Assembly: GCA_029945375.1 (NCBI GenBank)
Contig: CM057057.1
Span: forward strand, 2,790,001 to 2,854,000
DNA length: 64,000 nucleotides
From: Agaricus subrufescens
Taxonomy: Eukaryota > Basidiomycota > Agaricomycetes > Agaricales > Agaricaceae
Reading direction: 5' to 3'
Positions 40,649-59,064 of the stretch are shown piece by piece. Within the stretch, counting starts at the first letter, position 1; each line of letters opens with the position of its first letter. The notes beneath the pieces were generated by a model, which did no database searches, was not told the DNA's origin, and was given only the letters and a program-made list of their open reading frames with translations. Both the position numbers and the translations under genes were made by a program.

Positions 40649-43600
40649 ATGGCTGGCCCGTATGCCTTTGTCACCCTCGTTTCGTCAGACTCCTACCTCC
40701 CAGGCGCCCTAGCGCAGGTTGCGGCCCTCCGCGACATCCACCCCCAGCCCCCCGCCTTCCCAGAGCTCCCCTTCCAGGCCATCTGCCTGGTCACGCCCGA
40801 AACCGTCGACGTCTCGACCATCAAGCTCCTCCGCCGCTCCTTCGATCTCGTCGTCGGCGTCGAGGTTCTTGAGGCGCAAGACCCCGCCAATCTCCACCTC
40901 TTGGGTGAGTCCTTGCCTTCCCTTGCCATCCCCGCACCACTCCGATGAAATTTGCTCTTCTAACGATCTCCCTCTTCTGCCCCAAATCTCCTCTTGCCTT
41001 TACTAACACAGGCTGCCAGGCCGCCCCGACCTCACCACGGTCTTTACGAAATTGCATGTTTTCCGATTGACCGACTACTCTAAAATCATTTTTCTCGACG
41101 CCGACGTCCTCCCAATCCGCCCTCTTTCTCACCTCTTTAATCTGCCCCATGATTTTGCAGCCGCTCCAGATGTGGGCTGGCCCGACATTTTCAACTCTGG
41201 CGTTCTTGTTCTCTCCCCGGGCCACGACAGGTTCGACGACTTGACCGCTTTGCTCAATTCTAAAGGCTCCTGGGACGGCGGCGACCAAGGTCTTCTTAAC
41301 GAATGGCGCGGCGGCAACTGGCATAGACTAAGTTTTACCTACAACACTACCCCAACCGCTGCATATACGTGCGTCTCCCCTCTATCCCGTCTTCTCTTGT
41401 CCTTCTCACCCACCTCCCAGGTATGCCCCCGCTTACGAACGCTTTGGTTCCCAGATCAATGCCCTTCATTTTATCGGTCCAAACAAACCCTGGCATTCCA
41501 TCCCTTTCCGCTCTCCCTTTCTCGCCGACAATAGACCCACTTCCCTCCCCCGTTCTGCCCAACAGGCATACGACTACGAGTCTCTTGTTGACCGTTGGTT
41601 TGCTGTCTATGACAAACACTACCGTTCCCAGCCTATCCTACCGTACTCGTTTGAAGTCAAACATTATCCGTCCATATGGGATTTGCCACCTTCGTCGGCC
41701 CGTCCTGCGGGTGAAAAACATCTGGACTTGGAAGATCTTCGGAAACTCGCCATCGAAGGTATAAATGCGACTGGCTTCTTTACTCGAACAAACGGCGAGG
41801 GCGAATACCGTACTCTACCTCTTGAGGGTCGTTTTGATCTTATGCGGCCTAGGAAACCAGAGACCGAAAGCAAAAAGGATGATTCGTCACCCACTGCGGC
41901 TGTTCTTCCATCTGAGCCCTCATTATTAGAGACCGACTTTATGGTTAGTGAAAACGATCTACCCATGACACCCATGGCCCATTATATCGTCCTCCCTGAT
42001 GGTTCTCGACTACACGTCCCGCCGACACCAGGTTTTACGGCCCCTCCTGACCTTGCGATCGTGTCTAATTCTCTCCTTGAGACCTCTGAACCTATGTCCG
42101 ACTACTATGCCTCATCTGCTGGGCCAACCAGTGAATCAGACGGCGGCTCTACTGCCAAGGACCTTGGCGGTATGTCCATCAAACCTCCTCATCTTTCAAG
42201 GGCTACGCGCCGTTCATCTCATAGTGAATCCGATATGGAACTACCCACCCAGCATCCTATCAACCATGTTGCTCATCACCGTCATCATCACGAGCACGGA
42301 AAACCTTCCCATGTTCATCACACTCAGCACCAGGGTGTGTCCTCAAGATCGCAAGAAAAGCAGGACAACGCATTACGTCCTCTCTCGCCTCTTCTTGTCT
42401 CTTGGAATCCAGCTGTCGAACCGCCACCAAACAAGCGCCCACCGCTATCTGCGTTCCCAATTGATCCGTATTTCTCAAACGTTTGGGACTCTGCTCGACG
42501 TTCGAACGTCGGGCGCTATCAAAACTCTTCAGGGCACCGGCCAGATTTTTTCGAGGCTCCACCACCGCCCAAGATCCCTGAGACGTTGCGTGCGGAAGGG
42601 CATTACCGTAATGTCACTGGAGACATTGTTGCGGAACCAAATTCCATTCCGGACCTTGCAAAAGTAAAGCCAGTCTTTCCATGGGAGGATAAACCACGTC
42701 AAAAGCCTGAGCGTGTTTTCCCCGACTCGGATGCGCCGCCATCGGAACAACTCGTCACCCCAGAGAGCGTAAAACCAGTCTTTCCTTGGGAGACTAAAAC
42801 ACGCCAGAAGCCTGGGCGTGTGTTCCCCGATTCGGATACCCCGTCACTGGAACACTTCCTCAACTCAGACAACGTAAACCTCCCGCCAGCACCGGGTAAT
42901 ATATTGAAAGAACCTCCTCAGCCCAGGCCTCCCGCAAAACTGAGCTATTCAAATGCTTGGGATGTTGATCCAAGTATTCAGAATTATGCCAAACGACTGG
43001 TGCAGCCTTCTTCAAATACTCAACCATCTCGTTGGCAGGATTGGAGTGAGAAATCGGAAGCTAGCAGCCGGGATGGCGATGACGAAGACAACGCAGACGA
43101 AGATTCTGATGCTGATGAGCCCGACAGTGATGATGACGGGAAAACACGACGTCGTTCCCGTAGCTCATCTTCGGTGGCTGAAGACACCCGCCAAGTCCAA
43201 AAATCTGCTCAAAAAAGATATCGTTCCCGAGGGATTCAGACTATCCCTGTCGAAACTCAGAACCAGAGTGTCCAAGTAGCAGTTGTAGAAAATCGGAGCT
43301 GTCGAGTTTCGCAGCCTAGTAGGAATTCTAGCACTGTTGACCCTGTACGAGCCAAGCAGACTGCCCGCACCTCGCACTCGCATTCCCGATCTGGTGTTCC
43401 TCCTGCCCGCACTCCTCCTCGCACTCGGTCTGTGAGTAGTGGATCTTTGGGCATTAGCCCGTCTGGGGTGGCCACACCCCGTACTCGACGCGACTTTATC
43501 GCGCCTTCAACGTCAACTTCCTCCGCTATTTTTCCATCCAGGGCCGGTCCAGAAGTTATATCTAGAAGTGTATCAACTTCTCCTGCTCGTCCTGACGTCC

Positions 43601-43848
43601 TGACAACCCAGGAGCCTCACACTATATCGATCAATCAACGACAAATATCTAACGACTCGTCCCTTGGTTCACCTGTGTCATCCCTAGGACCGATATCGCC
43701 TCAGGACGATCAACCATTCGCACCTTCCGTTAGGAAGGGTACTAGAGTTTGGGATCCCGCGCGAGGCGTAGAGAGCTTTAAGCGTGGCTCGGAGGAAGTG
43801 CTTGCCCGGTTTCTTAAAATGGGGTCCTTTGAAGCCACTAATCGTTAA
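40649..43848 (+). CDS. Glycogenin (GT8) with long disordered C-terminal tail
   Basis: Exons 40649-40904, 41020-41368, 41421-43848; 925 aa. Glycogenin primes glycogen by adding glucose to itself. The GT8 domain fills residues ~1-270: YAFVTLVSSDSYLPGALAQ, KIIFLDADVLPIRP (DxD metal site), APDVGWPDIFNSGVLVLSP, GGDQGLLNEWRG and ALHFIGPNKPW. The remaining ~650 residues are Ser/Pro/Arg rich and disordered. The tail holds a 35-residue tandem repeat, an acidic run, and ends KGTRVWDPARGVESFKRGS..VLARFLKMGSFE; fungal glycogenin tails usually end with such a glycogen-synthase-binding helix. A decayed copy of part of this tail lies in the MAT locus (49400-49830). Confidence 0.95.
42664..42873 (+). repeat. 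Tandem 105-bp (35-residue) repeat inside the glycogenin tail
   Basis: Two in-frame copies: 42664-42768 and 42769-42873. Both begin VKPVFPWE and share RQKP.RVFPDSD. The DNA is also close between copies, so the duplication looks recent. A related VFPWE-type motif may bind glycogen synthase. Confidence 0.85.
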
Positions 43849-45193: not shown

Positions 45194-45448
45194 TAGCTAC
45201 TAATTACTTTTGTATTTGTGCCTTGGAATTCGACCCTGACTTGGCTTCTAAATGTTTGTGTGGCCGCGGGGGCCCAAAAAGATTTACAGGAGGGGTTTGA
45301 CGTCATAGTTGTTGCTAAAAATAGTGTTGATTAAGCACAGCAACGCCAATTCGGCTCACTGTCTATCCACCACTACTCGCTCAAATTTACTATGGTCAGG
45401 AGCTTTTGAACGTTTTAAAAGGCCCTGCAGGGAACTGATTCGGCTTCG

Positions 45449-46436
45449 ATGTATCAGGACAAGTTTGTCAACCTCGCTCAACAAGGTTTCGATGCCTATA
45501 ACAAACATCATGATTGTATGGTCCCTTTTTTCTCATCAATCCTCTTTGATCTCGCCAAAGTTGACACAAAAGCGCTCTGTGTTTTCTTCTCCGATTGTCC
45601 ATCGTATAGCTGATGTGAATAAGACTGGAGGTCAGGAGTATAACTCTCCTCATCATTCTGGTCAAAGCGGTTATGGATCTTATGATCGTCCTCAATGTGA
45701 GTGTGTCCCTCCTGTGATTAGTGTAGGAAAGCGCCGTGCTAACTCAGTTCTTTTTGGATTGCTTGTTGAAGTCGACCATGATGAAGTTGTCAGGCACGCT
45801 GAAAACTCTGGACATGGGAGCTCTGATCTTTTTTCTACTGCGCTTGGGTTTGTGCAGAACAACAAGGTTTTTATCTGGTTTTTAACATTATCCGATTTTG
45901 AAATGGGGCTGACATGTAGTTGATTTCGTGTAGAAAGATCATGAGGAACCACTTGATGACGAAGAGCTTACTCGTGCTCATGATAGAGTCTATAACCAGA
46001 ATGATTCTAGTGGGTTGACCTCTAAGCTTCTCGGCAGCGCTGCTGCTTTGGAGGTCAGTGGTATTCCTATTTTCACAATCTTCCCCGAACGTTGTCTAAT
46101 ATTACCCTTCTTGCAGGTCATGAAGAAGTTCACCGGCGGTTCTTCTAGCCACGGTGGGAACAGTCAGACTCAGCTTATTAGCATGGCGATGAGCGAAGCT
46201 ACTAAGATGTTTGATAAAACGGGAGGGCATGCTTCGGGAGGCAAGCAAGATGCCGTTAATGGAGCTGCTATGACTATTATGAAGCTTCTTGTTCAGTCGA
46301 AGTTTAGTGGATCGGGAGCAATAGGTGGTAAAGACTCGGGCGGCTTGAGCGGCTTGTTGTCCTTGGTATGTTTTGTAGCTCTCTTCTACGGCTGGGAGAT
46401 ACTAACGAGGAATAGGCCTCTAAATTCACCAAATAG
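45449..46436 (+). CDS. bfg: Beta-flanking protein (beta-fg), MAT-A border gene
   Basis: Exons 45449-45515, 45610-45696, 45772-45866, 45934-46053, 46117-46365, 46416-46436; 212 aa. The beta-flanking gene marks one side of the HD mating-type locus in Agaricomycetes; its biochemical role is unknown. The protein starts MYQDKFVNLAQQGFDAY, has a Gly/Tyr/Gln-rich linker (SGQSGYGSYDRPQ), then helices FDHDEVVRHAENSGHGSSDL, EPLDDEELTRAHDRVY, GLTSKLLGSAAALEVMKKF and QTQLISMAMSEATKMFDK. It ends in a seven-codon last exon, ASKFTK. Its neighbour on the right is the HD locus. Identification rests on motif memory, position, and the matching MIP gene on the other side. Confidence 0.85.
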
Positions 46437-47302
46437 TGGGTGAATGATTGGATAGATACTCGTCTAAGTTAGATCGTCCACAAATCCTGTAACGAACCCT
46501 CTTGTCAGAAATGCTTGTCTCTGTTGAGGGAGCCTAAGGATATGTATATCAAAAGACGAGCAGCTTTATCCAACTTACTTGAAAAGGTTAGAATAGAGGA
46601 TGACAGCCCATCCTTGTCCTACCAAACAGGGTTAAATCTAGAATGACAACATATACAATCGTTGTCAAATAAAAATTCTCTTATTTTAAAAGAACGCAGT
46701 ACGTGCAGCGCCGGCCTACAAGATTGGCCTCTAAGACCCTTTTGTTCGTAGGATCTGCTTACAGGCGTGTGTAAAAAACTAGTAGGATGCAGCTCCTCTC
46801 TGGCGCAGCGACAGTGAACGAGGATATTTCCAGGGGATTTAATATCTAATTGGAGTGGTAGAGACGAGCTTTCTCTCCTGTTTCCAGCAGTTTCTGGTAT
46901 TTGCCAGAACATCATGGCTAGCAGTAACCTAGTGTTGCCAGAATGTCGACAGGTGACGTTTTGAGTGGCTGGAACAAGTGACTGTTTAAGTCAACTTGTA
47001 TGGACTTCGAACGATTTTATTAATGTAAATCGTCAGGCCTCAGCTCCGAAAAAAAATCTTCAGCGAGCTTTGGGAAATGTCGATCAGGCACATAAATCTC
47101 CACAGGGAACGCATGAGTATAGTGCGTCCAGTGTGTGGGGGGAATGTATGGAATCGACGATGGGCTGCCTTCGTTCCATGGGTCTTGATTTCGCTGTCCT
47201 GAGGAATGTGGCGTAGAGGGCTTTGCTGCCTTCTTCTGCTCTTCCTGGGGTGACTGGGTTGTTATCAGTCTTCGAAGCAGGTGAAGAATACATAAGATCA
47301 CT
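46437..47302. other. Left edge of the MAT locus, no firm gene
   Basis: 866 bp between beta-fg and the first HD2 stop. Minus-strand frames stay open from 47020 into the HD2 tail (for example ending in PYIPPTHWTHYTHAFPVEIY), so a further 3' exon of the HD2 gene may lie at about 47020-47270. A minus frame at 46619-46915 has no coding character. Confidence 0.45.
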
Positions 47303-48818
47303 TTAGGGCTTCGATAATCTCGCGCCACTAGATAGACCATATGTTCGAGGAGTGGTGGGTATGTTAAATTTCGACCAATCGACGAAACGAAATGATGGGA
47401 GAAGAGGTAACGAGACCGATGGATGTGTTTGTGGAACCAGAGAAGACGACTTGCATGAAAAATTGTCACTCGAGCGAAGATTTCCACTAAGAGGGGGCGA
47501 GGTTTTCGAAGTTGAGAGAGAGCGAGGATGCTTAAAACGGGGTGTATCTCGCCCTTCATCCATGTCGGATCGCTTGCGCTTGAGCGATAATTTCATTTTT
47601 GGTGATGTAGATTCTATTGTTGAAAACGAGACTTTGGTTGGTCGTATGAGAGCGGGCAAAGGCAAAGGCGGGGGATACGTGTATAGCCCTGTATACCATG
47701 GGGATACTGGGGACGGAGACGGACGACTACAGAACAGTCGTAATTTCACAGCTAGCATCGAGCTGAGATCATCCACAGAGATAACGGTTGATCGAGGTTG
47801 TCGAGTATTACGGGGTAAAGCGGATTTCCTATCCCAATTGGGTTCCGGAAAGTGAGTTTTCGGGGATGAAGACCAAAACGATGACGGTGTAGAATGTTTA
47901 TGCGCTACGTATGGAGGTAATTCGAGATTGGTGGAGTCGTGGTGGGTTCGCCGACAATCGTGTGATTCAAACGTAGAAGTTCCTGGAGGATACGCAGATG
48001 GTACCGCCTCAGAGGCGGCGACTTCGGGTGACGGAAGTCGCGGTCGCTTGACTGGATCGACGGGTAAGGAATACGGTGGGCAAGTTTCAGGGCTCTCAGC
48101 GAAAAGGTTGCGCGAGATTTCATCAGGGCCCGCTCGTTTTAATTCCACACCAGCCTTACGCGAGCGACGGCGTCTGTTCTGAAACTGAAGCTAGTTCAGA
48201 ACCGTCGAGTATGATTGATGCATTCTTACCCATATGCCAATCTGTTGTGGGGTATTTCGTGTCTCACGAGCAAGCCAAATTCGATCATGCGTAGAAGGAT
48301 ATGCGTTGTGTTTGAAGTACGTTATCAGAAGCGGTGTTCGTTCCTGTTGACCGATAGATAAATCACTCTCATTCCCCAAGAATTCAACATACCGAGTTGA
48401 ATTCGGACTTTCCGCGTTTAATCTGGTTAGATATAAGGGTATACCAATGTTTTACACCAGATCCATATAAAGAAATATAGCGAGCCACTTGTTTCTCGAG
48501 AATGTCGCGTGCTATTGCATTATCCAGATAGTGTTGTACAAGTCTTTGGATTTGGGTCTCTGTGCACTTCCGCAGGTCGGAGATATGTCGTTCATATGTG
48601 TGTATGAGTTGTTTAGCAACAGATTGTCTGATGCAATGAGTGCTCAAAAACGTCGCAATACTGGGAGCTTGAGGTAGCTGAATGTTGGGTGGAGACGGTA
48701 GAGTTGCCGAGCGAGGATGAGGCATTTTGGTTGAAAGAGATTCCCCAAGAACGGATAAGATACAAGGAACGTTTTTCATCCGTTGGGGTCTCTCATCGAG
48801 AACTCGGAAAGCTGGCAT
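47303..48818 (-). CDS. HD2: HD2-type homeodomain mating-type protein, copy A
   Basis: Exons (complement) 48393-48818, 48230-48343, 47303-48184; 473 aa in this model. HD2 proteins pair with HD1 from a mate to form a nuclear transcription factor. The N-terminal ~140 residues carry helical heptads (IRQSVAKQLIHTYERHISDL), the expected HD1 recognition part. The homeodomain spans about 143-200: PLLITYFKHNAYPSTHDRI, then IWFQNRRRRSRKAG; W48, F49, N51 and R53 are present. Exon 2 is exactly 38 codons and ends after the homeodomain Trp. The tail is Ser/Pro rich with KLSLKRKRSDMDEGRD as a likely nuclear signal. The 3' end is unsure: frames stay open to 47020 and a last intron is possible. No HD1 partner lies beside it. 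Confidence 0.85.
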
Positions 48819-48918
48819 GGATAAGAGGGCAGGGGCAATTTGAGACAATTCGGAGAGGAAGATCTGGTGATGAATAAACAGATGACCTATTGGCCAATAC
48901 TAAATTCAGGCTCCGCAT

Positions 48919-48936
48919 TGTGACCATTGGGTCACA
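48919..48936. promoter_or_regulatory. Inverted repeat upstream of HD2 copy A
   Basis: tgtgacc-attg-ggtcaca, two perfect 7-bp arms around a 4-bp spacer, about 100 bp upstream of the HD2-A start. A dimer-binding site is possible; no function is shown by the sequence. Confidence 0.4.
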
Positions 48937-48975
48937 TTTTATTGTTATATATATGATTGTCAGTATCCCCCCATT

Positions 48976-49068
48976 AAATAAGTGTTATTTGGCGGTTCTC
49001 ATATGCTAACTATGTTTGCGATATGAGGACCTTGCCCCACCAAAATAAAATAAAATAAGTGTTATTTG
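48976..49068. repeat. 16-bp direct repeat pair
   Basis: aaataagtgttatttg occurs at 48976-48991 and again at 49053-49068. The 61 bp between them are unrelated AT-rich sequence. The pattern may be a footprint of a small insertion or slippage event. Confidence 0.6.
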
Positions 49069-49399
49069 ACCTACCTGTAGCCTCGGTGCCTGGATCTGCC
49101 CCTTTGGGCTTTGTGAATCTTTGTGACGTTAATTCAAGTAACTAAAGCTTTGCTAATTGACCAGAATTGACTATCATAACCTCATTCAGCTTCAGGGGGT
49201 AAATTTTGTGGTAGGTTTGGACTTTTGAGTAACATGTAAGGGTACCCTGACAGCTTTAGACGGATAAGACATTGAAGTACTAGAAGGTAACACATATAGA
49301 AAGTAGTGAGAGCGACGAGTAGAGTAGTTATTTGTTTGTTTTTTCCCCGATTTCTGAACAGAGACGTTCGTTTCCGTCTAACGGGTTCGTGTGGTTGCT

Positions 49400-49830
49400 C
49401 ATCGTTGGCGACTTTCATAACAGCCGGGACGAGAATAACAAGACCATCCAGACGAAGATGCCGATACCGGTGAGTCTGGCAGTGATGGTGGCAAGGGATT
49501 CCAACTTATTGTTCCTGTAGCTCGCCTTTGGTAGCTGGGGACACCTGTCCCAGACCAGATGTCCGTCCACCAAAGGCCGGGTGCGGTTCTTGAGGGATCC
49601 AAATTCAGAGTCACGTCATCCAGATAATAATTACCTTGGAAGATCGAAAACGACCTTGGAGTCTCGTGGCCCTGCACTGAGGAACTCTCGCAGTGTAGGT
49701 CCAAGCAGAGAACTGGTACCTCGCACTCATTCTGTGAGTACACCATGAATGGGTTGGCATTAGCCCATGCAGAGTGGCTGCACTTGACACACTCTGCATC
49801 GCGACTTTATCGCTTCTAAGTAGCACCAGT
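49400..49830 (+). pseudogene. Decayed fragment of the glycogenin C-terminal tail inside the MAT locus
   Basis: Plus-strand sequence here aligns in order with glycogenin exon 3 at about 43020-43510. Shared words, all colinear: cagccggga, cagacgaagat, gttcc.gtagctc, ctg..gacacc, gaggaa.tct, ccaagcag, tcgcactc, tctgtgagta, ggcattagccc, and cgcgactttatcgc (49800-49813 versus 43489-43502). A stretch of about 48 bp present in glycogenin is missing between tcgcactc and tctgtgagta. Frameshifts and stops break the reading frame, so it is not a gene. The HD2 flanks on both sides show no similarity to glycogenin. It probably arose by duplication of DNA from outside the locus, about 6 kb away. Confidence 0.82.
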
Positions 49831-50043
49831 GTCATGCATAGGACTTTTGAAGGCCTTGGCCAATATCAGGACCCATAGAAACCTCACATGTGTATATTAT
49901 ACACTCCTTCAAGTCATCACAACAGAAGGTATTTTACATCGATAACGGCTCAACGCTTACAAAAATACATCCCCAAAGTACATATATATTGTGGTATTAA
50001 GGTATAATACAGGTATAATACAACCTAATCTAGATATACAATG

Positions 50044-51571
50044 TCAAGTGAAACAGTATCGTTCTAGTGAAATCAGCATATTCAAACCAATAGACGGTCC
50101 TGCATACACTTCGAATCTCTTTGGTCCTGAAATTTGGAGATGCAATGGAGGAGGTTCCGGAGTAGAGGGTGTATCAGGAGAGGACCAGCTGGAACAACGA
50201 GCTACGGAAGGAGGTGAAGATATTACAGGGGAAGGTGAGAGGGACGAATTGCGATAGGTTGAATGGGTGAAAGGTGAAATTGCTCGCCTACAAGGCGATA
50301 GCGTCGGTTTCGGCATAGGTCGGCGTCTGGGGAGTGGTTTGGTTGGACGCGGTGATTGTCCGTATTGCAGGGGCTCTATTGACTGGGTGTACCCTGTGAG
50401 TGCCGGATGTTGTTTCGGGTATAGGCGGTGGTATGACCAGGGTTCAAAAGTATCAGACGTCTCCTCTGCATGTTCCCGTGTGTCCGAAGATATGCGTTGA
50501 CACGGTAAGCTGCGAAGGTTGAATCTCGCCGCAAAATGCTCCACGAGTTGTTCATCGATATCGCTATCGGAAGCTTTTCGTTTGGGTGACCGTGGATGTG
50601 GTTGTGATTCACGAGGCCATGTGAGAGAGCCCACATTGAACTCTAACTTCCCTTTCGTGGGACACTGCCAAAAGGCTTTCACATCTTTCTCAACGTATGG
50701 GCGCGGCCAAGCAGAGCCAGGGGGAAGGCAAAAGAAATCGAAACCTGATGTCGAAGTCGATGACACGGGGCAAGATGTCAGTGGACCATCCTTTGTTTTT
50801 TGGCTATCAGTAGATGTGAGCCTAGAATAAGCATAAACCTACAGTCGCGATGCGTCGGTTTTTGGACGCAGGTATCTCATCACCTACTGACGTAGCGATC
50901 CTAGATGTAGAAAAACCTTTACTGGAAAAATCTAGAGGTCCCTCAAAATCGGACCGTTTGAGAGGTATTCCTTTTCTCTTCTCTCGAGTACGATGATTTT
51001 GGAACTTTTTTTTTCTTAATCAAATACTGCGCAATCGAGGTATGGGCCAACTTACCCAATCATAAATTTGTTTGACTGTCATACCTGTCTTAGTAGCTAA
51101 TACAACCTTGTCTCGGTGGGTGGGATACGCATTTTGGGCAAAGAATCGTTTTAGAAATGGCGTCCACTCCTGATAGGAAATGTCAACAAGTAATAATTCA
51201 AGGAATACATGGCGTACCTGCTTGAACACTGGCCGCTCGTCTACAGAGTTAGCCGTTTTTGAGCGTTTTTGAACCCGAATGGAAGCAGATTGTAGGATAG
51301 CTTCCAACCAAGAAGTGATTCTTCGAGAATAACGTGCGTCGAGGGTACGGTTGATACGTTGAGTGAGACCACGCAATTCCACATTAGATGAGTATTTGCT
51401 AAGCCGCCCTAAAAGATTCTCGTAGTCACTCTCATAACTCGACTGCAAATCTTTCGCAAGCGAGGCAAATACGTTCGCGGCTTCCTGAGATTCTTTGATA
51501 GTGCATCCCATTTGTCTGAGCTGCACAGCCAGGGATGGTATTGGAGGGAACTGTAAAGGGGGAGGAGACAT
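50044..51571 (-). CDS. HD2: HD2-type homeodomain mating-type protein, copy B
   Basis: Exons (complement) 51218-51571, 51056-51169, 50843-51004, 50044-50790; 458 aa. The N-terminal ~118 residues include LRQMGCTIKESQEAANVFAS and YESDYENLLGRL, the likely dimer-choice region. The homeodomain (about 119-178) reads FLKRFFAQNAYPTHRDKVV, then IYDWFQNHRTREKRKG; W48, F49, N51, R53 are kept, with His at 52. Exon 2 is again exactly 38 codons ending at Trp. The acceptor of exon 3 follows nine A residues instead of a pyrimidine tract. The basic PRSPKRKASDSDIDE is a candidate nuclear signal; the tail is Ser/Pro rich. It has no HD1 beside it. Confidence 0.9.
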
Positions 51572-51640
51572 AGTGAACAAAGTTGGGATGCAGTGCGATA
51601 TCGTGAATAGTAAATACCCATTGTCTTATGTAATTCAAAT

Positions 51641-51654
51641 ACGTCACGTGACGT
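51641..51654. promoter_or_regulatory. Perfect 14-bp palindrome upstream of HD2 copy B
   Basis: acgtcacgtgacgt, 70 bp before the HD2-B ATG. It contains a CACGTG E-box core flanked by cgtca/tgacg half-sites, so bHLH or bZIP binding is plausible. This is inference from the sequence alone. Confidence 0.5.
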
Positions 51655-51674
51655 GCTCCATGGATCGTTGTTGT

Positions 51675-51740
51675 TTGTTGTTCGGTAAGTAACGCTGAGA
51701 TTCAAAGTTGTTGTTCGGTAAATAACGCTGAGATTCAAAG
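51675..51740. repeat. 33-bp tandem duplication, two copies
   Basis: Copies at 51675-51707 and 51708-51740, identical except one base (ggtaagtaacg versus ggtaaataacg). They lie about 105-170 bp upstream of HD2-B and could duplicate a promoter element. Confidence 0.9.
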
Positions 51741-52293
51741 TCTGCATTTGGAATTGAGTTTAAGTAGTCATAGGAAAATAGCCAACCCAGTGCATCGGGA
51801 TGGCAATAACACAAGCTATCAAAAGAATATTCGATATTCTCGGCGGAGGAACCCCTGGTAACAAGCAGGTATTACCGTTCCGATGCTTTTAGTCGGGGCC
51901 GGAGTTCAGTTGTAGTTGGTGGTCAAATATTAGGAGGTTTATTGTTTTACTAGGAATTCTTCCGATCATCCCGGGAAATGCAGAGACCTTGAATTTGTAT
52001 TGGTGAACACATTGCCTGTGAGGGTATCTGACGTTCTGCACCCTCAATGGAAAGGTTAGATGCCTTCTGGTGCTTAAGGAAGATTACAATGGGTTTCTTA
52101 TCAGTCTGGGCTCACTGAAGAAAGTTCGAATAAAACGCCCCGATTATCAAAGTATAGCGCTAGCTATTGTTATTTATCCTGAAGGTATAACTTGCTCGTA
52201 ACTGGATCCTTATTGTTACATATATATATCACAAGCTCCGGGGAGAGCAACACAATCAGTTCACTCCCTATTCAATCTCTCAGACAGTTCGCC

Positions 52294-52459
52294 ATGGGCG
52301 TCGATTGTGTGGCACGTTTAGAATTCGACATCAATGGGGATACGGTAAGGCACCACTTGCTACCCTTCTAGATGAAGCTTCCTAGAGCAACAGATATGCA
52401 GATTCCAATTGTGTGGTTGTGAGATAGCCAAGTGTAATGTAGTTGTTACATGGGTATAA
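52294..52459 (+). CDS. Possible tiny two-exon gene in the MAT locus
   Basis: ATG at 52294 in a strong context (gccATGG), preceded by a tatatata run at 52221-52228. Exon 1 (52294-52344) encodes MGVDCVARLEFDINGDT and ends at a GTAAGG donor. A 49-nt intron leads to an acceptor at 52393 and then 21 codons with four Cys, 38 aa in all; an alternative acceptor at 52401 gives a 23-aa product ending IPIVWL. No CaaX box, signal peptide or known family was seen. It may be a relic of a longer gene. Confidence 0.3.
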
Positions 52460-52513
52460 TAAGGTTATGATATCAACAAATGATTGCGAGTACAAAAGGT
52501 ATGTTGTTAGATG

Positions 52514-54127
52514 TCATTGACTGCGCAAGAACATCGGGGATAAAGAATAGAGATGGGGAATCTTATCCCAGATGTCACCATACGTTAAGTCAAGATCATC
52601 AGATTGTAGGCGAATGATTGACGCAGAGGGAGAAGAGATTGGTGTCAGGCAACCAACAGAGCTGTCCATAGATGAAGTACTTGTTCTCCGCCGTAACTGT
52701 CGCGAGTTACAGCATTTCTTGTTCGAAATCAGTGATTCCATAAAGGTTGAAGGTTGCTGGCGGTAACGCAAGAAGCCAGGTTCTTGTTGACTAGGAGACA
52801 GCGTGCGGGCAACTGGTTTTCGAAAGGAGTACAAGGGTGGAGAAGACGTCCGAACTCGACGATGATTCCGTCTTAGCATAGCAGGATGGTGAGAGGGGTA
52901 TAGATGTGTATACGTCGCGGGATACCAAGGCCGCTTCGAGGCCTGCTGTGATTCGCCTTCGAGCGTTTGACACCGCCTCCTTAAATTCAGGCAGGTTTGG
53001 AAGGAATCGCAGAGAACGTCAATTGACGTTCTAGTATGGGCAGAACGCTTGCAAGTTGGGCGCCGGTACCATTCGTTCGGGTCGTACAAGGAGGTAGATG
53101 GACTTGCCTGCCCCGGTGGCGAATTTGGGTATGGAGTTGGGAAAGCATTATTTGGCGGGTCAAACTTTTCCAGAATATTGGATTGGCCAGATGTCGGCCG
53201 CATCTATCGATTACCATGGTAAGTAGGGTTACAAAATAAAGAGAGAACACCCACCGTAATTTGTACTGGTTGTGGTGGCAGGAGTAGTTCGGATTTTGGT
53301 GGTTCAGACGGTGTTTTACAGAACTGCTTCGTATCTTGGGATGTGTCTTCAACATCTTCCCATGGGAAGCTGGAGCCGACCAGCCGCGCCCTTGGTTTTC
53401 CTGTTTTTTTGGCTCGATTGCGATGGTTTTGAAACTGGCAGCAAACCATGAGATATGAATCCAATTTTGTCTGAGAGATATTTTGCATACCCAGACTTCA
53501 ATCTGGCGATGTGTTAGACCCGTTTTTTTGGCAAGAATTCCGCGGTCAGCGGTAGATGGGTAAGCGTTGTAGTCAAAATATCTCTCTAGGAGAGGCACAG
53601 AATCCTTTCAAGATGTCTAAGATGATACCGAAATTCGAACGGAAATGTTGAGAACGCACGTGGTTAAAGGTAGGTCGGGGCTTTCCAGTCGAGAGATGCG
53701 ACGATGTTCGGGATGAGGAATGTGCCGTCTCGAAAACGACCTGTTTCCAATAGCGTAGCATCGAATGATATTTGCGCATGATAATTGTTTCTGCCGCGGA
53801 AATCGAGTTCGGAGAGATTTGGGCATTTGAATTCTGGTAATGCTTTCTGAAAAATAGTTCACATCTTTCCTTGAGGCGTGTCGCAGCGGTAGTATAAGCA
53901 GTTGAAAACTTTTCCGCCATTTCCGCATCTACCCCTGATGCTTCGAGCTCAGCCGCCAGGGATCCTGGTCCAGGTAATAATTCAGCCGCGTCAAAATCAA
54001 AGGAATCAAGAGCTGCAGTAGAGCGGGGTCTTCGTTCGTCCGTATAAGGGCTATTTGACTGGAGTTCCGAGGCGATCTGACAGATACGATGAAGAGCGGA
54101 AGAGCGAGATGACGTTGAATAAGCCAT
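52514..54127 (-). CDS. HD2: HD2-type homeodomain mating-type protein, copy C (paired with HD1)
   Basis: Exons (complement) 53660-54127, 53491-53604, 53255-53434, 52514-53203; 483 aa. Residues 1-156 form the N-terminal recognition part with helices LAAELEASGVDAEMAEKF and TAATRLKERCELFFRKHY. The homeodomain (about 157-215) reads LLERYFDYNAYPSTADRGI, then IEVWFQNHRNRAKKTGK; W48, F49, N51, R53 are kept, with His at 52 as in copy B. Exon 2 is 38 codons and ends after Trp, as in copies A and B. The tail contains LYPSHHPAM (copy B has LYPKQHPAL), so B and C look like closer relatives. It is divergent from HD1, 147 bp away: the canonical pair. Confidence 0.92.
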
Positions 54128-54274
54128 CTCCAGATGGTCAAAGGTGAGAGGGAGTAGTTGAATAAGAAGAGGAGTGGAGAAAGATAGCCAGCCGTTGCTT
54201 GGGTGTGTTTGGTAAACAATGAGAAACTTGTGGGAAACTTGTTCAACCTCAACAGCCTACGCTCACTTGCCTTT
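54128..54274. promoter_or_regulatory. Divergent promoter of the HD1/HD2-C pair
   Basis: 147 bp between the ATGs of HD2-C (minus) and HD1 (plus), the normal arrangement for an allelic HD pair. It contains a purine-rich stretch (gagagggagtag) and no TATA box. Confidence 0.7.
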
Positions 54275-56222
54275 ATGCAGGCTATACGAAGTCGGTTGCG
54301 ACATATTGAAGACGAGGATGAATTAATTTCATCACTAACAGATTATTGTTCTTCCGATTTGACTTGTTTCGAGACGAACTTCCGCGATGATATCCGACAG
54401 GCTACCCCCCCTGGTCATACCGACGGTGCTATTCTCGAGCTGGTAAATGCTATCATCACTCGGTCTTGGGCTGCCCAACAATCTTCTTATGAATCAGAAG
54501 TACCTACAATTCGATGAATCTCTTCAGAACGAGGTGCAAGAGATTTTCAACCCAGATGGGCTATCCCTCACGAAATCCGAATCTAAATCCATCACTCCGA
54601 TTGTACCATCATCTCTTCCCCCTTATATCGCGCCTGCCTATCAGTGGCTCATGGAAAATATTCACTGTCCATATCCCTCTTTGGCTAAAAAGGATTCACT
54701 CGCGAAATTGTCAGGAACAGGCCGGAAAGCCATCGATGCATGGTTTATCGACGTTCGGAAACGTATGGGCTGGAGTGACTTACGCAACACACGATACCAT
54801 GGCAAAAAAAATGAAATCATTCGTGCTGCGACATTGTTTTTCCGTGAGAATCAAGATGTCGATACTGCGTTGGAGTTTGCTTCAATACACGGGGTGGCAA
54901 AGGAGCTGTATTCCGAAAAACTTGGTCATAGCAGGCTGGCTACTTATATTGGTGCGCTTATAGACACAAAAAAAAGATCCTTCCCGATGCCTCGTCCTTC
55001 AGCCACTCCTGAAGACTCATGGCCTTCACTAGGTGAACACCACAATGTTCCTAGAATGTTTTTCTCTCAGTGCACTTCCAGCATGAAATCTTCCTTATCT
55101 AAACGTCTACGGTCACAAAAAAGTAGGGAGGAGGAGCTTGAACATGATCCAAGATCGTTCAAACGTCAATGGTTGGTTTATTTCTGCTTTGGCGAACGAA
55201 TGCTCAGCACTATCAGCATGTATCCTGGACCAAGTCATATTCCAGTAGCATACAGTAATACTTCACAGTCCCCCAGCTTCGAACCAGAACCGAAGAAGAT
55301 TTTCCCAGCTGAGAGGTACAGTTAGAAAGGTTATCATAATCGTCACCACAGTACTGATCGCTTCGTAGTCCTGAGAAATACATCGAGTAGGTATATGTTT
55401 ATGAAAAAGAGATGAGGAATTAACCCGTTTCCAGGTTAGGTATCATCCCTGACATAACTGTGCCGCCTGTAGAAGTAAGGTGATTTGAACGCTTATTTTA
55501 CTCCCTTGCTCGATATCGACCAGTTCCATCTTCAGTGGTATCTTAACGCCCTGTATATCGATCACTTTCAGTCACTGATAGTTTGCTTCCGATTGTAGTC
55601 CTCAATCATCTAACGATACTCAGAACACAAGATCGGAGTCACAGTCTGTGCAAGATTCACTGGTCACTCTCGAGATTCCATCAGAGTGGTGCTTTACCCC
55701 AAAGCCCCCTCATCTGGTCACACCGTCCTGCAGTCCAGGTGACGTCGCGGCGTGTGATGCCGAAGCGTTTGATTTTGGATCATTCAATTTCGACGATATG
55801 TCTCATACAGTTGGGACTGGTTCCTTCGGTATCTATCTTTGCCAGTAAAAGAATGAAACTGACCTGATCAATCATTATCAGAACCACTTCCTGTATCTCT
55901 TTCTTCAACGTTGAGTAATACGCGCGATAATTTCCATAACGAAACGAACCAAGCATTCCTTGGCATATCAGATTATTCACTAAGTGACCCATCATCGTCT
56001 ATCTCTCCCTCCAATGTAGATGATCTGAACTTGCCTGCAACATTAAAGGGTTTAACACAACTGCCTGAACTCGACATCTTAAATTTTAACAGTGGCCCGT
56101 TGGTAGGAAGGTATCAAGTGGCTGGTTGGGATTTTGGCAGCATCGACAACTTGTTTCAGGACATCCTCCAGATTCCGCCCTCCAACTCCACTATATCTCA
56201 TGATGCTCTTTGGAAAGATTAA
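54275..56222 (+). CDS. HD1: HD1-type homeodomain mating-type protein
   Basis: Exons 54275-54442, 54498-55171, 55217-55315, 55369-55386, 55435-55479, 55599-55819, 55882-56222; 521 aa. HD1 pairs with a non-self HD2 and usually supplies the activation part. The homeodomain (about 97-156) reads YIAPAYQWLMENIHCPYPSL, DSLAKLSGTGRKAIDAWFID and VRKRMGWSDL, the HD1 pattern with RMGW after helix 3. Position 51 is Asp rather than Asn. A conserved helical part follows (KKNEIIRAATLFFREN). Basic SKRLRSQKSREEELEHD may be nuclear import. The tail is acidic/Ser rich (FDFGSFNFDDMSH; LPELDILNFNSG), as in activation domains. Exon 4 is 18 nt. The 45-nt intron 55172-55216 is in frame and may be retained; the intron 55480-55598 could hide another exon. 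Confidence 0.88.
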
Positions 56223-56622
56223 AAGAACCTACAACACTGAGTTGAGATGCAGCTCGCTCAGCAACAGCTGGAGGCTGGGAATCATTACATCGTACGTGGT
56301 CATGACTGTTTGTAGCGAGTTCTTTCACTGAATCTTTAAAAGGGATAGCCAAATTTCATAATGTATCAACGAATATGTTCATCGCCATACTACTGCAGTA
56401 ATTTCATGTTGGATCATGTCGCAGTGTTTCTTTATTGTATAAGAACTACAATCGGGTTTTGGCATCTAATGGAAACCTCCATTATCGATATCTGTTTCCT
56501 AACCTCCAAAGTGTTATTTTTGCTAGCTTTTCATCATCCGCACTATTCTCTTTTTTAAGTGCTTCGGGTTTCTATAGCACGCGCACCGTATATGCATCAC
56601 AAAATAACAGGACAACAATAAT
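56223..56622. other. Convergent interval between HD1 and MIP
   Basis: 400 bp with the 3' UTRs of HD1 and MIP. It is AT-rich; plus frames here encode only low-complexity hydrophobic text. No gene seen. Confidence 0.6.
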
Positions 56623-59064
56623 CTAATGCCTTCCAGGAAGGCCTACCTCATCCTCAATTCTCCATCTACCAACCTCTCTCATAGCTTCAGCGTCTCCTCG
56701 TTCAAGCTCCGGAGCACTCAACACCGCAGCCACCATCTGCCAAGGATCCTTCGCCCCACCCCACTTCAACACCTCCTGCTTATACTTCTCACCCAACTCC
56801 CTACTCAAAGGGTCCTTCTTAAACACCTCCTTCCATACCCTAGACGCAATCGCCCTATCAAAAAGATACGAATAATATGTCGCTCCATATCCAAATAAAT
56901 GTCCAAACTGAGTCTGGAAACTTGTACCAGCAACGTGGGGTATCAATCCCTTGGTATTATGTAAATCAGCGAGTTCTTGTGTTGTCGAAAAGGATGGATT
57001 ATTAAGAAGTGAGGGGGAGTGGTAGATTTGGTCTAGGGATGCGAGTAAGATTTGTGAGTACGTGTCGATAGAATTACATGGGTCTTCAGGAATGTGATTA
57101 ATCTGGCCGAGGGCTTGTGGTCCCTCGAGATCGAAGAGGGAGAGAACTGCTGGTGAATTGAGGAAATGTTCCATTAGAATTGAAGGGAGTTCGACAAAGT
57201 CGGTTGCGCAACGCGTTCCGGATACATTCTGGTACTCTGTGCGACCTATCATGGCTAATGACGACATATCAGAAAACAAAACTGTTTTCGAGGATATTGT
57301 TACTCACAATGCATTGCATGACCCATTTCATGGAACAATGTCGTTACTTCGTGCCATTCCAGAACAGTAGGTCCTTTAGATGCCGACGGTCTTGCAAACT
57401 CGCAGAGCAAAACCACAAGTGGTAGCTGATAGACGCCATCTTGGTTTGGTAGTTTATGCCTCTTCGAGTTTTCGAAGTCGAGGCTCTGTTTGATCAACTC
57501 CTCATAGCCTTCTGCCGTCCCATCTGCATGTTCATCATCCAGATCCGTCCTTCGGGAGCATCGCACAGTATAATGAGCAGCTCCACTAGCCTTTCCATAT
57601 CGTGCAAATAAATCAGCGTATATCCATCCGATTAAGCCTTTATCTTCATCAATGACCTCTAGTTTTTGGACGTCCGAATGCCAGACCTCGCCAGCTTGAG
57701 CGTCGGTAGGCCGAAGAGTTATACCATACAGGTGTTTGAAAAGTCTTGAGAGTCCCATAAATACAGTTCCGAGAGTTAGAGGGGGAAGTGGGATTGGGGG
57801 AGTAGGAGGTTCAGGTGGACAATAAAAATCGCGGTCCCAGGCTTGAATTATGGGTAGCGAAGAGAGGCTGTGATGGGCCTGTTTTCGGGCACTTAGAGCG
57901 CGAAGAGCATTCTCAGCAAAAGGTTGAGTGTGCCTCCTGAGAGTATCCAAGAAATTCACAACATTTTCTGTGAATGAATATCTTAATCGGTGACATTCTC
58001 GTACATCAAGGACAGACACTCACCAGGTGTTTTTGCCATCTTGTCATCCAGCGTCATATGCGCAAAACTTTGCCGACCAACCAATCTCGCCAACTCAGCC
58101 CTAGCTCTCAATAGGTTCTCTAATGTACTAATGTCCTTCTCCGTACTCGAATTTGATGCAATATATAGTCTTCTTCTTGGTTCCTCATCTGGCGCAGAGC
58201 GCATAATCATCTGCGCCTGTAACGAGCCCGGATAAACCAAGAGTTCACGTTTGGTAAAGTGAGCTTGGAGCTGCAGCCTAATCCCCATGCCCTTGTCTTT
58301 GATTCCCGCCAAATGCTCGGGTTGAATGAGAGCGGGCGGTCGAGGCGCGCTGGCATTCTCCAAAAACTCGCGCCCGAGACTGAGGATCTCAGAGGACAGC
58401 GAAACAAACTTTTGGCGTTGCTCCGGCGGAAGATTAATTGCTGACTTTTCAAAGTCGCGCCAGAATATAAGTGCAGTTTGATACTCCTCCGGACCGAGAG
58501 ATTTAACCAGCGAGGGGTCAGATAAGACTGCTTTAAGAACCTGGGCGCAAGGGACGTTAGGTGAGACTGAAGGTCAAGGAGAGAGATCCACTAGCTCACC
58601 TCGTATAGTCCGACATGGGTGTTCAACACATTCATAAACTCGCACAGCTTCTCGTAGGCATTGTTGGCGGCGGAGACCCAGTGACGATCTGGGTGAGCAT
58701 TGCGGACGAGCTCGGCAAGGTCGATGACACCACACAACAGGTCGCTCAAGCGGTCGAGATTTTTGACGACTCGAGCCAACTCGTCCCGCGAGCTGCGGGC
58801 ATTCAGGACACGGTTTGTAAGGAGCTGGGCGCGGACAAGGGTGGCGTCGGCGAGGGAGATAAAGTCATTCGGACGAGAGAGCTGAGTGTGGCCAAAGAGG
58901 CCGGTCGCGGGGAGTCTGAGGGAGGGCCGGGGGGCGTCGAAGAGGGAGAGGATGTTGGTGTCGTCCGGGGCGACGGAGGAAACATGTTTTGCGAGGAGAC
59001 AACCGCGGAATCTGAAGATGTGTTTGTGCGGCGACAAGAGCCTGGTCGCCGACCGCGCCAGCAT
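56623..59064 (-). CDS. mip: Mitochondrial intermediate peptidase (MIP/Oct1), MAT-A border gene
   Basis: Exons (complement) 58600-59064, 58024-58540, 57308-57967, 56623-57254; 757 aa. This M3-family zinc peptidase removes an octapeptide from imported matrix proteins. The N-terminus [20 protein letters not shown] is a typical matrix signal. The zinc site is [12 protein letters not shown] (HEMGH), with the third ligand region downstream ([14 protein letters not shown]). Joined exons 3 and 4 give [14 protein letters not shown]. Other marks: [34 protein letters not shown] and [18 protein letters not shown] is the classical neighbour of the HD locus in Agaricomycetes. Confidence 0.97.

Follow-up and report, generated by a model that had tools for sequence, protein, structure and literature searches.

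A MAT-A homeodomain locus with one HD1 and three HD2 genes between candidate beta-fg and MIP borders

In the established model, the HD1 and HD2 homeodomain proteins encoded by a single MAT-A haplotype do not form pairs among themselves. Once mates have fused, the N-terminal region of HD1 mediates dimerisation with an HD2 from the other nucleus, and this dimer turns on the A pathway, which governs dikaryon development. The active dimer is described as HD1 together with a compatible HD2 in the available part of one account (PMC3140503).

The neighbours of the HD genes are known for several species, as far as the accessible parts of the sources go. A glycogenin gene flanks MAT-A in Trichaptum (PMC8970355) and in Agrocybe. 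A linked beta-fg gene is absent in Flammulina (PMC3140503) and in Agrocybe; the pair of beta-fg and MIP, which the initial annotation of the DNA analysed here took as the established signature of MAT-A, is therefore common but not universal. Incomplete HD pairs have been described in Agaricus bisporus (PMC8305134).

Here, a window of 64,000 nucleotides (contig C1, positions 2790001-2854000) was analysed in the context of its 44.65-Mb assembly of 44 contigs; positions given without a contig are those of the window. The window almost certainly (probability about 0.96) contains a MAT-A (HD) mating-type locus, and it is from this locus that the fungus is taken to be an Agaricomycete. It looks like an ordinary MAT-A haplotype of the well-studied kind, in which the gene count alone is mildly unusual.

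Layout of the locus and its border genes

Six genes lie in 45392-59064, and their order and strands (beta-fg, three HD2 genes, HD1, MIP) agree with those first proposed. They are listed here together with the left synteny marker and the region between the divergent genes.

40649..43848 (limits approximate, by eye), plus strand: glycogenin-like gene with Glyco_transf_8, left synteny marker
45392..46436, plus strand: beta-fg candidate, 210 aa, six introns, DUF7721
47303..48725, minus strand: HD2a, homeodomain PF00046 (E 1.2e-12), WFQNRRRR
50044..51571, minus strand: HD2b, homeodomain PF00046 (E 5.3e-13), WFQNHRTR
52514..54127, minus strand: HD2c, divergent partner of HD1, homeodomain PF00046 (E 1.2e-16), WFQNHRNR
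54128..54274, no strand: 147-bp intergenic region between divergent HD2c and HD1, from the ATG coordinates
54275..56222, plus strand: HD1, TALE-like homeodomain, Homeobox_KN (E 2.2e-12), exons between 55170 and 55602 not resolved
56623..59064, minus strand: probable MIP (mitochondrial intermediate peptidase), Peptidase_M3 (best exon E 4.8e-48)

HD2c and HD1 form the divergently transcribed HD1-HD2 pair by which MAT-A is recognised in Agaricomycetes. Their ATGs, at 54127 and 54275, leave the 147 bp between them that had been claimed. This pair, the HD domains and the border genes support the proposal of a MAT-A locus between beta-fg and MIP. So do the genes to the left, the single copy, the intron position shared by the HD2s, the divergence of these paralogues and the receptor/pheromone cluster on C13, all described below. 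The locus is not a chance assembly of reading frames: in Pfam, the four homeodomains gave E-values from 2.2e-12 to 1.2e-16 after splicing, DUF7721 gave 4.1e-24 and the best Peptidase_M3 exon 4.8e-48.

A DNA search of the assembly with 47000-56300 found the locus in a single copy. Apart from the locus itself, five matches were obtained, each about 58-65 bases long and each to a short repeat at approximately 48992-49058. Located between HD2a and HD2b, this stretch of about 60 bases is 83-85% identical to five other places in the genome, and is a short dispersed repeat or the remnant of a mobile element inside the HD locus. Small open frames starting MAITQAIKRIFDILGG and MGVDCVARLEFDINGDT are found at 51802-52400, between HD2b and HD2c. 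The first, spliced by eye, had no match in a Pfam search, and the second is preceded by a TATA-like stretch.

The start of beta-fg required revision. It had been placed at 45449, and was moved to 45392, directly followed by a 63-nt intron, because the resulting structure of six introns fits the published description of beta-fg1, with six introns and the first right after the ATG (available part of PMC8305134). This best model contains one NKTGGQEYNSPHHSGQSGY stretch. The DUF7721 match was obtained with a 212-aa version of the protein that starts at 45449. A genome search for DUF7721 gave two matches, both of them exons of this gene, and no other DUF7721 gene was seen; no link between DUF7721 and beta-fg was found among the papers searched. 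The gene is a candidate beta-fg by its structure, size and motif, compared with the published description, and by its position and occurrence as a single copy.

At the other border, the ATG of MIP was read at 59064, precisely where it had been placed. Peptidase_M3 was matched in three of the four exon ORFs, the N-terminal ORF having no match. All 12 matches in PDB were M3 peptidases, with thimet oligopeptidase first and neurolysin also among the best, while NCBIfam returned the oligopeptidase A and Dcp models only, far below cut-off. Given that the PDB matches indicate the M3 family, the choice of MIP over another member of the family draws on position and on a leader-like N-terminus, and the gene is probably MIP.

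The left flank comprises the glycogenin-like gene, an ABC1 kinase and RPB2; SURF1 and an I/LWEQ (SLA2-like) gene follow at a greater distance. Glyco_transf_8 was matched in the ORF 41007-41534 (E 1.2e-11). The long ORF 41332-43848, which had no Pfam match, was assigned to the glycogenin-like gene by eye, as was the start of that gene.

The homeodomain genes

All four spliced homeodomains score above the Pfam cut-offs; that of HD1 is TALE-like and those of the HD2s are typical. Comparison with PDB, carried out for HD1 and, among the HD2s, for HD2c alone, gave a similar division. HD2c matched typical homeodomains, with DUX4 and engrailed among the best 60 of 140 sequences at E 0.01, and the best matches of HD1 were TALE homeodomains, though weak ones (Meis2/Meis1, E 0.0004-0.0005). 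Both motifs named in the initial annotation were recovered: WFIDVRKRMGW in the HD1 reading frame, and WFQN.R as WFQNRR, WFQNHR and WFQNHR in HD2a, HD2b and HD2c once an intron separating W from F is removed.

This intron splits the motif in all three HD2s, and each HD2 model has an additional intron just before the homeodomain, with borders chosen to bring the three proteins into register. The first intron has four candidates in HD2a and is optional in HD2b, where it is in frame; in HD2c it is a 55-nt intron picked by hand, outside a candidate list that offered two others. A third intron is present in the models of HD2b (seven candidates) and HD2c (three candidates). The gene models were built from the sequence alone, with several introns chosen by the authors among candidates, and under these choices no frame is broken in the HD models, 55170-55602 of HD1 being left aside. 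Pairwise identity among the HD2s is only 25-26% (BLASTP alignments of 334-360 columns), which marks them as old paralogues rather than recent copies.

In HD1, the first intron (54443-54497, 55 nt) was preferred among seven candidates. The middle of the gene, 55170-55602, permits 160 possible splice chains, and the HD1 protein used in domain and BLAST searches omits it. The HD1 homeodomain (54700-54770) has Asp where Meis has Asn (WFIDVRKR versus WFINARRR), at a site that we take to be the DNA-contacting homeodomain position 51.

The profiles for the mating-specific regions did not detect this gene. The HD1 protein had no match in Pfam to Mating_N, the dimerisation domain at the N-terminus of HD1 proteins, and reached 12.2 bits with Mating_C (cut-off 22.5, E 0.1), and neither profile found the HD1 of the locus when the genome was searched. 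This weighs only slightly against the MAT-A reading, because these regions evolve fast and the Mating_C search matched nowhere in the genome. The sole genome match to Mating_N, at C12:734187 (20.9 bits, cut-off 21.4), was rejected as an HD1 elsewhere; its frame resembles a protein methyltransferase by eye.

The genome was also searched exon by exon for a second HD cluster, using PF05920, PF00046, the HD1 protein and the HD2c protein. No second HD1/HD2 cluster was seen in the assembly, at a limited sensitivity, since the six-frame searches with PF00046 and PF05920 did not detect HD2a. The homeodomain of HD2a is split by an intron, and the gene was found with the HD2c protein alone (E 1.6e-5). 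Three candidates were set aside as probable non-mating regulators: a TALE gene on C8, which looks CUP9/TGIF-like by its translation, and, by eye from their translations, a homeodomain gene at C1:2520382 and three homeodomain exons at C1:3143671-3144738. The remaining matches were on C3 (1100555 and 2493684) and C2 (1747416, E 0.15, with the HD2c protein only). The three exons on C1, about 300 kb to the right of the HD locus, encode homeodomains that lie in tandem inside 1.1 kb of the same strand. An intron seems to interrupt each of these homeodomains, and the three perhaps belong to one gene.

Unpaired HD2 genes and mating specificity

The MAT-A locus presumably sets one of two mating specificities, and dimerisation, self-incompatibility, allelic variation and a function for unpaired HD2s are presumed here as well. 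Specificity would lie with the single HD1 and the three diverged HD2s. As for HD2a and HD2b, which have no HD1 next to them, they would be active solely together with an HD1 brought in by the mate. It is tempting to speculate that this is an HD1-limited haplotype, with a single HD1 and three old, diverged and functional HD2s; for two of these the original HD1 partner would be gone, and they would depend on the HD1 of the mate. This proposal is tentative, and its chances are somewhat below even.

A partly degenerate locus is a serious but rather doubtful alternative. HD2a and HD2b would then be non-functional leftovers of HD1-HD2 pairs, and HD2c-HD1 alone would set specificity; this is a variant of the MAT-A reading and does not exclude it. 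Degeneration would fit the failure to see an HD1 or an HD1 relic beside HD2a or HD2b: tblastn with the four HD proteins of the locus gave no HD1 match in the two gaps, and no match at all below E 0.18, a search in which a diverged relic could be missed. The region before the homeodomain, measured to the Pfam starts, is also shorter in HD2a (about 102 residues) and HD2b (about 109) than in HD2c (about 147) and in functional HD2s of C. cinerea and S. commune (130-150, in the available part of PMC8305134), and a truncated extra HD2 appears in the accessible part of the Trichaptum study (PMC8970355). However, the models of HD2a, HD2b and HD2c all have an uninterrupted frame down to the stop and retain WFQN-R. 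Furthermore, HD2a has an in-frame ATG at 48818, 31 codons upstream, and this possible alternative start would give about 133 residues before its homeodomain.

A likely MAT-B locus was found on C13. The 17 STE3 receptor exon matches are spread over three contigs, with 12 on C13, and three have a stop inside (an intron or a defect). They group into about six genes. Four of these are on C13, in the intervals 549890-552331 and 659642-663929, and the gene at C13:659642 covers only profile positions 2-175 of 292. A scan for CaaX motifs covered the unspliced frames of six 10-kb pieces, with C13:559801-649999 outside the scan. Four frames ending in CaaX were found, and two of them, both on C13, look like pheromone precursors:

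C13:548444-548623: pheromone-precursor-like frame, MDSFAPF...CIIA
C13:668035-668160: pheromone-precursor-like frame, MDSFATL...CVIV

These two frames sit outside the two groups of STE3 genes, which are about 107 kb apart. The other two, at C13:651350 and C7:2293066, do not look like pheromone precursors. A MAT-B locus on a separate contig is consistent with tetrapolarity, and contig separation is no proof of free segregation. That the fungus is instead bipolar, a further variant of MAT-A in which mating type depends on the HD locus only and the receptor cluster no longer plays a part in mating, is unlikely: bipolarity is published for Agaricus bisporus and for further Agaricomycetes that have these border genes (available part of PMC8305134), but the receptors on C13 are clustered and there are two pheromone-precursor-like CaaX genes on that contig, the presence of which does not by itself show function.

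Comparison with described loci

As a complete and well-bordered MAT-A haplotype of one mushroom, the locus is useful for the design of mating-type markers. Its likenesses to other loci are drawn from the accessible parts of the published accounts. Agaricus bisporus (PMC8305134) shares mip1, the divergent HD1-HD2 pair and beta-fg on the far side, and the var. bisporus reference also has an additional HD2. It differs in having two beta-fg copies, compared with one here, and one additional HD2, compared with two. In Trichaptum (PMC8970355), MATA likewise has bfg and glycogenin on one side and MIP1 on the other, and some strains have lost one bHD gene (bHD1) or gained an extra HD2 (xHD2); unlike the present locus, its basic plan is two HD complexes, and its xHD2 is truncated.

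Flammulina velutipes matA3 (PMC3140503) also combines one HD1 with more than one HD2, including an HD2 without an HD1 partner. However, the sequenced strain has two HD2 genes rather than three, its subloci are 73 kb apart, and no beta-flanking gene is near the HD genes. The HD locus of Hypsizygus marmoreus (PMC8686365) resembles this one in its Mip and Bfg borders and its unequal numbers of HD1 and HD2, whereas its reference shows the opposite imbalance, with three HD1 and two HD2 genes.

No published case of the exact arrangement, unpaired and with three HD2 to one HD1, was found in a literature search, which says little. The 3:1 ratio is another example of gene loss and retention at MAT-A loci and raises no new question. 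With HD genes that lack a partner already described in Flammulina, Agaricus, Trichaptum and Hypsizygus, this ratio varies a familiar theme.
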